A stretch of 64,000 bases of DNA from Bradyrhizobium diazoefficiens (GTDB lineage Bacteria > Pseudomonadota > Alphaproteobacteria > Rhizobiales > Xanthobacteraceae). The notes under the pieces are model-generated. The model searched no databases, was not told the origin of the DNA, and saw only the letters and a list, made by a program, of their open reading frames with translations. The position numbers and the translations under genes are program-made. Each line of letters begins with the position of its first letter. The first letter of the stretch is position 1. This document shows positions 25,097 to 30,498 of the stretch, in pieces. Location: positions 4,154,001 through 4,218,000 of the forward strand of contig NZ_CP067041.1 of NCBI RefSeq assembly GCF_016599855.1, written 5' to 3'.

Positions 25097-25306
25097 TCAA
25101 TGCGTTGCGTCGGACAGTTCGAGGCGTCTCTCGATGCGGTCGACGCGAATCTCCAGGCGATCAAGTCTGCGGTTCACACCGGCCAAGCCTTCTTCCACCG
25201 CCGTGACGCGAGTTTTCAGGTCTTGCAGATCATCCGCCATTCGCTCAGTCCGCTGATCGATCTTGCGCAGGATTGCAAGCACGATGTTATCCGGCTGATC
25301 CGTCAT
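25097..25306 (-). CDS. Small coiled-coil protein embedded between nuoF and nuoG
   Basis: This 69-residue soluble protein begins MTDQPDNIVLAILRKIDQRT and continues as nearly one uninterrupted heptad-repeat helix (LQDLKTRVTAVEEGL, then NRRLDRLEIRVDRIERRLEL), so a parallel dimeric or trimeric coiled coil is expected. It has no membrane segment. It lies 9 bases behind nuoF's end and 13 bases before nuoG's start, so it is cotranscribed with Complex I genes. Its N-terminus resembles that of the small protein at 30247-30498 ([15 protein letters not shown]). Function unknown; an assembly or docking role is only a guess. Confidence 0.75.
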   Translation of the reverse strand: MTDQPDNIVLAILRKIDQRTERMADDLQDLKTRVTAVEEGLAGVNRRLDRLEIRVDRIERRLELSDATH

Positions 25307-25315
25307 CGTCCTCTC

Positions 25316-26641
25316 CTACTCCGCCGCCACCATGTCCACGGGATCGCGGACGCCGACGTCGTCGACATCGGCCTTGTGCGAATACTGGTCGATGCGCGCT
25401 TCGATCTCGTGACGGAAATGCGCGATCAGGCCCTGGATCGGCCAGGCGGCAGCGTCGCCGAGCGCGCAAATGGTGTGGCCTTCGACCTGTTTTGTCACCT
25501 CGAGCAGCATGTCGATTTCGCGCTTGTGGGCGCGGCCTTCGGCCATGCGGGTGAGCACGCGCCACATCCAGCCGGTGCCCTCGCGGCACGGCGTGCACTG
25601 GCCGCAGCTCTCATGCTTGTAGAAATAGGAGATGCGGGCGATGGCGCGGATCAGGTCGGTGGACTTGTCCATCACGATCACGGCCGCGGTGCCGAGGCCC
25701 GAGCGCAGCTTGCTCAGACTGTCGAAATCCATCGGCGTGTCGATGATCTGCTCGGCCGGCACCATGCGCACCGAGGAGCCGCCGGGGATCACGGCTTTGA
25801 GGTTGTCCCAGCCGCCGCGAATGCCACCGCAATGCTTGTCGATCAGCTCACGGAACGGAATGCCCATGGCCTCTTCGACGTTGCAAGGCCGCTCGACATG
25901 GCCGGAGATACAGAAGAGTTTCGTGCCGACATTGTTCGGACGGCCGATGCCGGCGAACCAGGCGGCGCCGCGGCGCAGGATATCGGGCGCAACCGCGATC
26001 GACTCGACGTTGTTGACGGTGGTCGGGCAGCCGAACAGGCCGACATTGGCCGGGAACGGCGGCTTCAGGCGCGGCTGACCCTTCTTGCCTTCGAGGCTTT
26101 CGAGCAGTGCGGTCTCCTCGCCGCAGATATAGGCGCCGGCGCCGTGCGCGACGTAAATGTCGAACGGCCAGCCGTTGACGTTGTCCTTGCCGACGAGCTT
26201 GGCGTCATAGGCTTGGTCGATCGCGGCCTGAAGATGCTCGCGCTCGCGGATGAACTCGCCGCGGACATAGATGTAACAAGTGTGCGCGTTCATCGCGCAG
26301 CTCGCGATCAGGCAACCCTCGATCAGCAGATGCGGATCGTGCCGCATGATCTCGCGATCCTTGCAGGTGCCGGGCTCGGACTCGTCGGCGTTGACGACGA
26401 GATAGCTCGGCCTGCCGTCGGTCGATTCCTTCGGCATGAACGACCACTTGAGGCCGGTCGGAAAGCCGGCGCCGCCGCGGCCGCGCAAGCCCGACGCCTT
26501 CATCTCGTTGATGATCCAGTCGCGGCCCTTGTCGATGATATTCTTCGTGCCGTCCCAGGCGCCGCGGCGCCGCGCGCCCTCGAGCCCCCAATCGTGAAGG
26601 CCGTAGAGGTTCTTGAAGATGCGATCCTTGTCCTCGAGCAT
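25316..26641 (-). CDS. nuoF: NADH-quinone oxidoreductase subunit F
   Basis: This is the NADH- and FMN-binding subunit (441 residues). It shows the NADH-site glycine-rich [18 protein letters not shown] at about residues 50-67, the FMN region ([16 protein letters not shown]), and the [4Fe-4S] motif [15 protein letters not shown] with a later Cys in [10 protein letters not shown]. It begins at ATG 26641, 15 bases after the small membrane protein gene. Confidence 0.96.
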
Positions 26642-26656
26642 ATCAGTGCTTTCCGA

Positions 26657-26860
26657 TCAACGGTTGGCCTGCTTGTAGGCAAGCCCGGCGGCGCAGACGG
26701 CGAAGGTCAGCGCCCAGAGCAGACTGGTTTCCTGCGTCGCGTTCATCGCGAAGCGCTGCAGCAGGAACATGAAAGCGGCGGCGAGCGCGGAGTGCATGGC
26801 GACGAAGCCCCATTTCTTCACGGCTTCGCTCCTGCGGTTCACCTGAGACGGAAGACCCAT
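26657..26860 (-). CDS. Small membrane protein embedded between nuoE and nuoF
   Basis: This 67-residue protein has a basic N-terminus (SQVNRRSEAVKKWGF) and two hydrophobic stretches, one around residues 20-38 (FVAMHSALAAAFMFLLQRFA) and one around 45-62 (SLLWALTFAVCAAGLAY). It probably folds as a membrane hairpin. Its ATG shares one base with the nuoE stop (TGATG), which is strong evidence for coupled translation. I know no function; it may be an accessory subunit or assembly factor of Complex I. Confidence 0.75.
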   Translation of the reverse strand: MGLPSQVNRRSEAVKKWGFVAMHSALAAAFMFLLQRFAMNATQETSLLWALTFAVCAAGLAYKQANR

Positions 26861-28446: not shown

Positions 28447-29642
28447 CACCGATCGACCTCTCCGAATACGATGTCGAGCGAGCCGAGAATGGCCGAGACG
28501 TCGGCCAGCAGATGCCCGCGGCAGATGTGGTCCATCGCCTGCAGATGGGCAAAGCCCGGCGCGCGGATCTTGCACTTGTAGGGCTTGTTGGTGCCGTCGG
28601 AGATCAGATAGACGCCGAACTCGCCCTTCGGTGCTTCGACCGCGGCGTAGACCTCGCCGGCCGGCACGTGAACGCCCTCGGTGTAGAGCTTGAAGTGGTG
28701 GATCAGCGCTTCCATCGAGCGCTTCATCTCGCCGCGGCGCGGCGGCGCGACCTTGTTGTCCTCGACGACGACGGGGCCCTTCCCTTCGGCTGCATTCAGC
28801 TTCTGGATGCACTGCTTCATGATGCGCACGGACTGGCGCATCTCTTCCATGCGGATCAGATAGCGGTCGTAGCAATCGCCGTTCTTGCCGATCGGAATGT
28901 CGAAATCCATCTCGGCGTAGCATTCATAGGGCTGCGACTTGCGCAGATCCCAGGCCGCGCCCGAGCCGCGCACCATCACGCCCGAAAAGCCCCACGCCCA
29001 AGCTTCCTTCAGCGGCACGACGCCGATATCGACGTTGCGCTGCTTGAAGATGCGGTTGCCGGTGAGCAGGCGATCGAGGTCATCAACCACTTTAAGGAAC
29101 GGATCGCACCAGGCCTCGATGTCGTCGACCAGCTTTCGCGGCAGGTCCTGATGCACGCCGCCGACGCGGAAGAAGGCTGCGTGCATGCGGCTGCCCGAGG
29201 CGCGCTCGTAGAACACCATCAGCTTCTCGCGCTCTTCAAAACCCCACAGCGGCGGGGTCAGGGCGCCGACGTCCATCGCCTGCGTGGTGACATTGAGAAG
29301 GTGAGAGAGGATGCGGCCGATCTCGCAATAGAGCACGCGGATCAGCTGGCCGCGGCGCGGCACCTCGATGCCGAGCAGCTTTTCGGCGGCGAGGCAGAAG
29401 GCATGCTCCTGGTTCATTGGCGCGACATAGTCGAGCCGGTCGAAATACGGGATCGCCTGGAGATAGGTCTTCTGCTCGATCAGCTTCTCGGTGCCACGGT
29501 GAAGCAGGCCGATATGCGGGTCGACGCGCTCGACGACTTCGCCGTCGAGTTCCAGCACCAGACGCAACACGCCATGCGCGGCCGGGTGCTGCGGGCCGAA
29601 ATTGATAGTGAAGTTACGGAGATGCTGCGGTTGCTCGTTCAT
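28446..29642 (-). CDS. nuoD: NADH-quinone oxidoreductase subunit D
   Basis: This 49-kDa-type subunit (398 residues) helps form the quinone pocket. It shows [20 protein letters not shown] near residue 15, with the quinone-site His, and [20 protein letters not shown] and [15 protein letters not shown]. The C-terminal DIVFGEVDR is standard. ATG 29642 was chosen over a TTG at 29648. It is separate from nuoC (two-base gap), not fused as in E. coli. Confidence 0.96.
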
Positions 29643-29644
29643 GA

Positions 29645-30250
29645 TCAACTCTTCGGCCCCGCTTTTTCATCCCCCGGCAACGGATAGTCCGCCCCTTCCC
29701 ACGGCGAGAGGAAATCGAACTTGCGGAATTCCTGGCTGAGCTTGACGGGCTCGTACACCACCCGCTTCTCCTGATCGTCGTAGCGGACCTCGACGAAGCC
29801 AGTGAGCGGGAAATCCTTGCGCAGCGGATGTCCTTCGAAACCGTAATCGGTGAGGATGCGGCGCATGTCGGGGTGGCCGACGAAGAACACGCCGTAGAGG
29901 TCGTAGGCCTCGCGCTCGAACCAGTCGGCGCCGGGGAACACCTCGATCAGCGACGGCACCTGCGTGGTCTCGTCGGCCTGGGCCTTGAGCCGGATCCGCG
30001 TGTTCAGGGTTGGTGACAGGAAGTGATAGATCACGTCGAAGCGCTTTTCGCGCGCGGGATAGTCCGCGGCCGTGATGTCGGTGAAGTTGACGAAACGGCA
30101 ATTCGGATCGTCGCGGAGGTACGTGACCACCTCGACGATCTTGCTCACGTCAACGTTCAGCGAGAGCTGATCGAAGGCAACATCGTATCCCGTCACCCCG
30201 TTGGGCAACGCCGCCTTGATGGCTTCTCCGAGTTCGGCAAGCTTGTTCAC
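29645..30250 (-). CDS. nuoC: NADH-quinone oxidoreductase subunit C
   Basis: This 201-residue 30-kDa-type subunit has [20 protein letters not shown] at about residues 105-125, then [20 protein letters not shown] and the C-terminal [14 protein letters not shown]. It starts with GTG 30250, which overlaps the stop of the upstream small coiled-coil gene (GTGA). Peripheral arm of Complex I. Confidence 0.96.
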
Positions 30251-30498
30251 TTATGCCCCTCTAGCTCTCTCAGCTTGTTCTCGAGGGCCTCGATCCTCTC
30301 CTCGAACTCACCGGTGACAAGTTTGCTCAGCAATGTATCTGCCGTCAGAGCCTGTCTGTAACTCTTTTGCGCCTCTTCGACACCACCAAGCCGCTTGTCG
30401 AGTGCAGCGATCATCGCGCGGGTCTGCTCGTGCTGCGTAAGATTCTCAGCGCGCATCTCGCGGAGCAGCGGCACAATCATGTCTGCCGGATCGGTCAT
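30247..30498 (-). CDS. Small coiled-coil protein embedded between nuoB and nuoC
   Basis: This 83-residue soluble protein begins [20 protein letters not shown] and is almost wholly alpha-helical: [20 protein letters not shown], then a C-terminal coiled coil [20 protein letters not shown] 30498 was chosen because it gives this N-terminus, which resembles that of the nuo-embedded protein at 25097-25306; the longer open frame only shadows nuoB. Its stop overlaps the GTG of nuoC. It is cotranscribed with nuoB and nuoC. Function unknown. Confidence 0.75.

Follow-up and report, generated by a model that had tools for sequence, protein, structure and literature searches.

The window, a stretch of 64,000 nucleotides from Bradyrhizobium diazoefficiens (contig NZ_CP067041.1), carries the nuo operon of complex I on its minus strand, and in this operon lie two mini-genes, P1 between nuoF and nuoG and P2 between nuoB and nuoC. 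Judged by their sequences, they belong to a large superfamily of unnamed alphaproteobacterial proteins of 65–90 amino acids (aa), whose genes, in the bacterial family of the window, are seated at junctions of core operons. Neither P1 nor P2 is a conserved subunit of complex I or a general factor of its assembly. Our preferred reading, tentative and somewhat short of probable, is that they are optional, junction-resident helical rods that may modulate or support what their own operon produces. The nuo, suf, atp, sdh, and pur operons, like other core operons, are commonly regarded as nearly closed sets; here, one optional mini-protein family repeatedly fills their junctions, its clades correspond to junctions, the protein is under selection, and lengths change in heptad steps.

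Two Mini-Genes in the nuo Operon

A first-pass annotation of the window had called two short open reading frames (ORFs) at these junctions, tightly packed with their neighbours, the second sharing bases with nuoC. All of this is confirmed on the minus strand of the host genome, which is a single 7.1-Mb contig. The features concerned are as follows.

25097..25306, minus strand: P1, coiled-coil mini-gene of 69 aa at the nuoF–nuoG junction (ORF calls, homology, selection, structure model)
30247..30498, minus strand: P2, helical mini-gene of 83 aa at the nuoB–nuoC junction (ORF calls, homology, structure model)
30247..30250, minus strand: GTGA overlap of the P2 stop (TGA) with the nuoC start (GTG) (sequence)
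25316..26641, minus strand: nuoF
23008..25083, minus strand: nuoG
30510..31097, minus strand: nuoB
29645..30250, minus strand: nuoC

A gap of 9 bp separates the nuoF stop from P1, and another of 13 bp separates P1 from the nuoG start. P2 follows the nuoB stop at a distance of 11 bp and shares 4 bp with nuoC; through this GTGA overlap the translation of nuoC is probably coupled to that of P2.

P1 and P2 are taken to be real genes, because both have many homologous clusters and a low ratio of nonsynonymous to synonymous substitution rates (dN/dS). At E ≤ 0.01, homologues are found in 650 of 685 candidate protein clusters for P1 and in 446 of 449 for P2. The median dN/dS of P1 is 0.152 (71 pairs from 19 sequences at Bradyrhizobium nuo loci), to be compared with 0.148 for nuoC, 0.108 for nuoE, 0.119 for nuoG, and 0.050 for nuoF at the same loci, and with 0.160 and 0.374 for two other inserts, FkbM and P3. 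These values indicate that P1 is clearly under purifying selection. Evidence for P2 is thinner: its dN/dS of 0.112 comes from the single usable pair among four sequences, the remaining five pairs being saturated at silent sites, and suggests selection of the same sign.

The coiled-coil label of the first-pass annotation is well founded for P1, less so for P2. The structure prediction for P1 is one continuous helix (residues 5–68; mean predicted local distance difference test score, pLDDT, 92), and in the best register Ile, Leu, Met, Phe, or Val occupy 79% of a/d positions vs. 11% elsewhere. The P2 prediction is a helix interrupted at residues 19 and 63 (mean pLDDT 86; range over five models, 64–86), and the corresponding frequencies are 48% vs. 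20%.

P1 and P2 as Distant Relatives

The two proteins had been proposed as paralogs from the likeness of their first 12 residues, of which six are identical. BLASTP yields no alignment of P1 with P2 at E ≤ 100, and comparison of two narrow profiles with hhalign gives a probability of only 62%, while the P1-side and P2-side superfamily profiles align over most of their length, including the N-terminal motif, with E = 1e-11 and a probability of 97%. P1 carries both superfamily end motifs, of the PDNxVLxxLRxI type at the N-terminus and of the RIERRL type at the C-terminus; the ends of P2 are variants of both, and its membership rests on the profile comparison. Paralogy thus survives as distant kinship. 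A recent duplication inside nuo is ruled out by the lack of a BLASTP alignment and by the grouping of P2 with a clade from the metF–metH junction (see below).

In the host genome, single-sequence searches show, besides the queries themselves, no match below E = 0.1 for P1 and none at E ≤ 10 for P2, and a joint profile search finds P1 and P2 alone below E = 0.08.

Superfamily Members at Junctions of Core Operons

The superfamily profile was seeded from 18 sequences (P1, P2, and relatives), with members from met, pur, atp, sdh, and sufC–sufD junctions absent from the seed. Among 149 genomes of the family it matches in 43, with 77 matches in total, 20 in nuo and 57 outside. We inspected 42 of the 57 non-nuo matches, and 39 of the 42 are enclosed by two known neighbouring core genes; of the 15 left over, some are partial, score close to the cut-off, and may have arisen by chance. 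In all, 84 members were inspected, comprising these 42, 18 genus loci, four members from a nuo-seeded search, and 20 class-level ones; one of the 84 (L229) itself lies at nuoF–nuoG.

Of the 83 members outside nuo, 56 are flanked on both sides by a same-strand tested pair, as seen in tblastn searches with the named neighbours (representatives were named by NCBIfam). The pairs are EttA/MltB in 22 cases, PurS/PurQ in nine, SufC/SufD in eight, MetF/MetH in seven, SufB/SufC in six, AtpG/AtpD in three, and SdhA/SdhB in one. Both flanking markers are within 200 bp in 32 of the 56 members; for EttA/MltB, marker distances reach 3.9 kb, and other genes are often interposed. All 56 pair-flanked members are among the 60 that come from the window's bacterial family. 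A broader profile search finds 4703 clusters at E ≤ 1e-5 among 8000 scored candidates, and the names of the 120 clusters listed from it are only haphazard.

A tandem of two superfamily members occurs at one ettA–mltB junction (L173:3981–4531). They are 66 and 80 aa long, share their first part, and differ by 14 residues in length, which points to a local duplication with a two-heptad difference.

Clades Follow Junctions, and Lengths Change by Heptads

Mapping junction labels onto a tree of 132 rows requires 17 changes vs. a mean of 78 for shuffled labels, a comparison that demonstrates clustering of the labels and nothing beyond. The labels were assigned by eye and checked by tblastn, with L183 unconfirmed on both sides and L129 confirmed on one. 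The nuoB–nuoC, sufB–sufC, sufC–sufD, and purS–purQ labels need one change each, metF–metH and atpG–atpD two, ettA three, and nuoF–nuoG five. The single-sided clades have a branch support of 100 (nuoB–nuoC), 99 (sufB–sufC), 94 (sufC–sufD), and 92 (purS–purQ). P2 groups with metF–metH members, along with L071 and the cobT–cobS row (support 96), apart from P1.

P1-type members are conserved at their ends (PDNxVLxxLRxI and RIERRLxL) and variable in length in the middle. Both end anchors are present in 103 of the 132 rows, and in 97 of these the ends lie 44, 51, or 58 residues apart; the other 29 rows lack an anchor, including all nuoB–nuoC and metF–metH rows, so that the measurement covers P1-type members. 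Among 120 other homologues, spacing falls in the same residue class modulo 7 in 90 of the 95 with both anchors. These counts use a revised N-terminal anchor, since an earlier version sometimes locked three residues early and thereby produced a spurious additional class of lengths. Although members of one clade do not count as independent cases, the ettA, purS–purQ, sufC–sufD, atpG–atpD, and nuoF–nuoG clades each show heptad steps. Listed lengths of P2-type members are 83 (six times) and 85 for metF–metH, and 76, 82, and 83 (three times) for nuoB–nuoC. If selection maintains an uninterrupted coiled coil with a fixed end-to-end register, changes by whole heptads are to be expected; because the spacing changes almost solely in this way, the rod itself is selected.

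Distribution in nuo Operons

The genome searches scored only part of the first-look candidates in each genome (at most about 20–22 in the genus searches, 40 in the family profile search, and 19 in the class-wide searches), hence all presence counts are lower bounds. Of the 265 genus genomes searched, 40 contain a P1 match at E ≤ 1e-5, and in 22 P1 is placed at the nuoF–nuoG junction, namely, the window, 19 loci (L094–L109, L113, L114, and the truncated L130), and L138 and L140. In the remaining 18 genomes the matches have at most 46% identity; 15 of them were inspected and show no nuo genes nearby, and three (G314, G367, G390), with matches of at most 43% identity, fell outside the locus inspection. 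P2 is found in five of the 265 genomes, always at nuoB–nuoC: intact in the window, L106, L110, and L111, and as a relic in L112. Of 80 family-level nuo loci, P1 is present in ten and P2 in one. The three genomes closest to the window in the family draw (L009–L011; NuoF 98–99% identical) have neither, with a gap of 5 bp between nuoF and nuoG and of 17 bp between nuoB and the aligned nuoC start, and other genomes with 97–99% identical NuoF do have P1.

P1-like genes recur at nuoF–nuoG in other bacterial families. Such a gene lies there in 35 of the 39 loci of one search, a figure biased upward, as the search was seeded with nuo copies, and including the truncated L171 and the probably chimeric L145. 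By organism names, such genes occur in Rhodopseudomonas, Bosea, Devosia, Methylopila, Azorhizobium, Methylocapsa, a Rhizobiaceae metagenome-assembled genome (MAG), and a Caulobacter MAG. Across the class, P1-type profiles match in 20 of 289 genomes, the window's included, and P2-type profiles in three, the window's and two borderline cases.

In L145, a 'Brevundimonas' MAG, P1 and the nuoG start closely resemble those of a Bradyrhizobium MAG, P1 matching it except for one inserted residue, and the other nuo genes are far more distant; the contig is probably chimeric. Its P1 is one of the six odd spacings described above.

The first-pass annotation had suggested that persistent linkage to nuo across genera would support a complex I role, and that absence from most nuo operons of relatives, or homologues scattered elsewhere, would speak against it. 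Linkage does recur for P1-like genes at nuoF–nuoG in several families, but in most genus genomes it was not found; given the genus counts and the share of superfamily matches outside nuo, the adverse outcome is largely what we observe. A subunit or assembly factor would be expected wherever the nuo operon of the lineage occurs, and P1 and P2 are not present in this way; nor are homologues confined to nuo, though the narrower P1 clade is mostly nuo-linked.

Gain, Loss, and Relics at nuo Junctions

Comparison of filled and empty nuoF–nuoG junctions shows a short direct repeat around P1, which in the window consists of the following copies.

25301..25306, minus strand: ATGACG at the P1 start, copy 1 of the 6-bp direct repeat (sequence)
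25078..25083, minus strand: ATGACG at the nuoG start, copy 2 of the 6-bp direct repeat (sequence)

The empty junction of L009 reads TAG-GAAGA-ATGACCAAG, and the filled junction of L094 reads TAG-GAAGA-ATGACC...P1...-ATGACCAAG; hence, P1 opens with the nuoG start context and is bracketed by the repeat (ATGACC in L094). Recombination between the two copies would give exactly the junction of L009, and the two junctions by themselves do not tell gain from loss.

Other loci retain traces. A 165-aa ORF with no Pfam match follows P1 at the nuoF–nuoG junction in L098, L099, and L101–L104, and is present without P1 in L012–L014. In L130 the first part of P1 remains beside the last 15 residues of this ORF. 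L110 has no P1, and its junction retains the last 11 bases of the 165-aa ORF; because the same 11-base scar is seen in the P1-bearing sister rows L100 and L106, the empty state of the L110 junction is probably secondary, most simply read as a loss of P1. L112 holds a P2 relic that is deleted internally. The start of P2 in the window occupies the position of the nuoC start in relatives that lack P2 (ATGGAC or ATGGAT in most P2-less Bradyrhizobium rows), and nuoC now uses the GTG that overlaps the P2 stop. P1 and P2 are dispensable, because they are found in few of the 265 genomes and leave relics (L130, L112), and because the empty P1 junction of L110 looks secondary.

On a nuoD+nuoF tree, the four P1 states (types A, B, and C, and absence) require a minimum of 15 changes over 27 chosen Bradyrhizobium rows, presence or absence alone eight, and P2 three. 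The rows were picked for having P1 or P2, plus a family draw, hence these counts are not rates; many forks of the tree are open. Sister rows with a support of 100/100 differ in P1: L095 has type A and L105 type B, and L012 has none and L104 type A.

Other Inserts in the nuo Operon

P1 and P2 share the operon with other optional genes. At least one junction gap of at least 150 bp within nuoA–G is seen in 76 of 80 family loci, the number of such gaps being 0/77 for nuoA–nuoB, 9/79 for nuoB–nuoC, 26/79 for nuoC–nuoD, 52/80 for nuoD–nuoE, 21/80 for nuoE–nuoF, and 39/80 for nuoF–nuoG. In ten representatives scanned, inserts include the FlK-type thioesterase, GFA, 23S rRNA intervening-sequence protein (IVP), cupin-like, Uma2, DUF3291, glyoxalase, pentapeptide, and TM2 types. 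Two further inserts lie in the window.

26657..26860, minus strand: P3, membrane-type mini-gene of 67 aa at the nuoE–nuoF junction, another optional insert
27484..28446, minus strand: FkbM-type methyltransferase gene at the nuoD–nuoE junction, another insert (Pfam PF05050, 3e-13; TIGR01444, 1e-20)

P3 is present in 21 of the 80 family loci and evolves faster than its neighbours (dN/dS 0.37). The FkbM-type methyltransferase is detected at nuoD–nuoE in 34 of the 80 (dN/dS 0.16). According to the accessible text of PMC11522691, complex I of Paracoccus binds an L-isoaspartyl-O-methyltransferase, which makes a link of FkbM to complex I modification worth considering.

Possible Roles of the Rods

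If P1 and P2 are optional rods, they would form small homo-oligomers, be synthesized together with the subunits encoded next to them, and serve on the spot as dispensable aids to the assembly, stability, or stoichiometry of what their own operon encodes; the proposed targets are the NuoF–NuoG module for P1 and the NuoB–NuoC module for P2. Both a general assembly factor and mere spacer DNA are disfavoured, because P1 is selected and its position has long been kept, yet genomes can do without it and close relatives differ in P1 type.

Several points weigh against optional rods serving their own operon. The tree is built on only 72 alignment columns and contains several long branches, that of P2 among them, so its deep order is unsure; vertical descent by itself would also yield junction-specific clades, and composition can inflate homology among coiled coils. 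Outside the family of the window, none of 23 non-nuo members is flanked on both sides by a tested pair, and their contexts are mostly single and unrelated (among them leuS, htpG, murJ, and an XdhB-like/MadB-like pair); nuoF–nuoG is the sole junction shown to cross families. The mini-gene in L207 is antisense between cobT and cobS. To our knowledge, EttA–MltB and MetF–MetH are not stable complexes. The mixture of P1 subtypes and absence among close relatives looks more like passenger exchange than like an adapted subunit.

The last point leads to the strongest rival, which we consider less likely than optional rods though by no means negligible: P1 and P2 may be passengers, weakly useful or selfish cargo spread by recombination in conserved flanks and retained through translational coupling of the next gene. 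Passengers would account for the gaps and unrelated inserts in nearly all family nuo operons, for the differing sister rows, and for the position of the window's P2 at the place where relatives start nuoC. They fit poorly with the purifying selection on P1, the register-locked length, and the fidelity of members to their junctions across genera of the family. Mobile elements offer little: tblastn of one ettA-type member against phage records found nothing, and one P1-type member gave a single partial match in plasmids, P1 and P2 themselves not being queries in either search. A phage or plasmid origin is not supported by these searches.

A more specific and rather speculative possibility, which we think doubtful, is that the rods are junction clamps: each, translated between two adjacent subunit genes on the same polysome, would hold or order the nascent partners during assembly. 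Candidate partners would be NuoF/NuoG, NuoB/NuoC, SufB/SufC, SufC/SufD, AtpG/AtpD, SdhA/SdhB, and PurS/PurQ, with a register-locked rod of adjustable length. The nuo, suf, atp, sdh, and pur products are each single complexes, and the idea is attractive because most family junctions separate subunits of one complex; however, operon neighbours are often subunits of one complex anyway. If true, clamping would be a general, optional aid to co-translational assembly.

That P1 and P2 are dedicated complex I assembly or stability factors, close to what the first-pass annotation suggested with its assembly, stability, or regulatory subunits, is improbable. Its part that stands is that these are genuine protein genes packed into nuo, with P1-like genes recurring at nuoF–nuoG over several families, and the single-sequence searches of the host genome show no second copy; the part that does not is a fixed tie to complex I, since the genes are optional, most genus genomes have no nuo copy found, they are missing from relatives whose Nuo proteins are almost the same, and superfamily members occupy several other operons. 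Nor, in the accessible text of PMC11522691, is any reported extra subunit of Paracoccus complex I described as being of this type. An ORF inside nuo should accordingly not be named a complex I factor on position.

Least likely, the act of translation rather than the protein would matter, the mini-ORF being a coupler or spacer through which the relative amounts of the two flanking subunits are fixed: the GTGA overlap of P2 with nuoC agrees with this, as do the 4 bp that several members share with the mltB or purQ gene downstream, coupling requiring overlaps or very short gaps (PMC10666635, in the part available), but P1 has gaps of 9 and 13 bp and no overlaps, and its dN/dS near 0.15 and heptad-step lengths indicate that the protein sequence is selected. 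The same source reports, in that part, translational coupling by gene overlaps and an over-representation of such overlaps in genes that encode heteromeric complex subunits.

Taken as optional rods or as passengers, the family makes two ideas testable against each other, operon-encoded rods that aid subunit assembly and conserved operons as docking sites for passengers.

Comparison With Known Families and Systems

Scans of P1, P2, and selected relatives against Pfam, NCBIfam, and PADLOC give only sub-threshold or generic coiled-coil matches, and profile searches of the PDB give only generic coiled coils. Three families come nearest. Pfam DUF7310 (PF23991), a coiled-coil region of unknown function that is also the precomputed domain of several homologues, is matched weakly along the coiled coil, with 19.6 bits for P1 and 18.0 bits for P2, below the gathering score of 40. 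NCBIfam NF048001 (gene transfer agent, GTA, head formation protein, RCAP_rcc01685 family), likewise a small protein, is matched by the C-terminal part of an ettA-type member (6e-6; 25.9 bits) and by P1 (16.6 bits), both below the cut-off of 50, and not by P2; the similarity is probably generic coiled-coil likeness. PHROGs phrog_5553, of no known function, is matched over nearly the full length, from near the N-terminus, by P1 (6.5e-7) and the ettA-type member (1.9e-8), and not by P2; PHROGs offers no cut-off. In the open-licence PubMed Central (PMC) literature, we found no description of this mini-gene family.

Among systems tied to complex I, the part available of a report on the complex I operons of Rhodobacter sphaeroides (PMC4859585) mentions no such mini-gene. 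The closest parallel is the set of supernumerary subunits of alphaproteobacterial complex I, likewise non-core proteins tied to complex I in the same bacterial class. In Paracoccus, as far as the excerpts of PMC11522691 and PMC8115037 go, they are NDUFS4, NDUFS6, NDUFA12, and a protein L-isoaspartyl-O-methyltransferase (PIMT). The first-pass statement that P1 and P2 resemble no known complex I extras holds against this reported set: the Paracoccus extras are of other kinds, whereas P1 and P2 are optional in-operon helical rods, whose family is found also in other operons. Single reported inserts in core operons are similar in being an extra co-transcribed gene in a core junction; in the accounts available, these are a putative ADP-ribosylglycohydrolase and an acyl-homoserine lactone (AHL) lactonase, and not members of the superfamily of P1 and P2.

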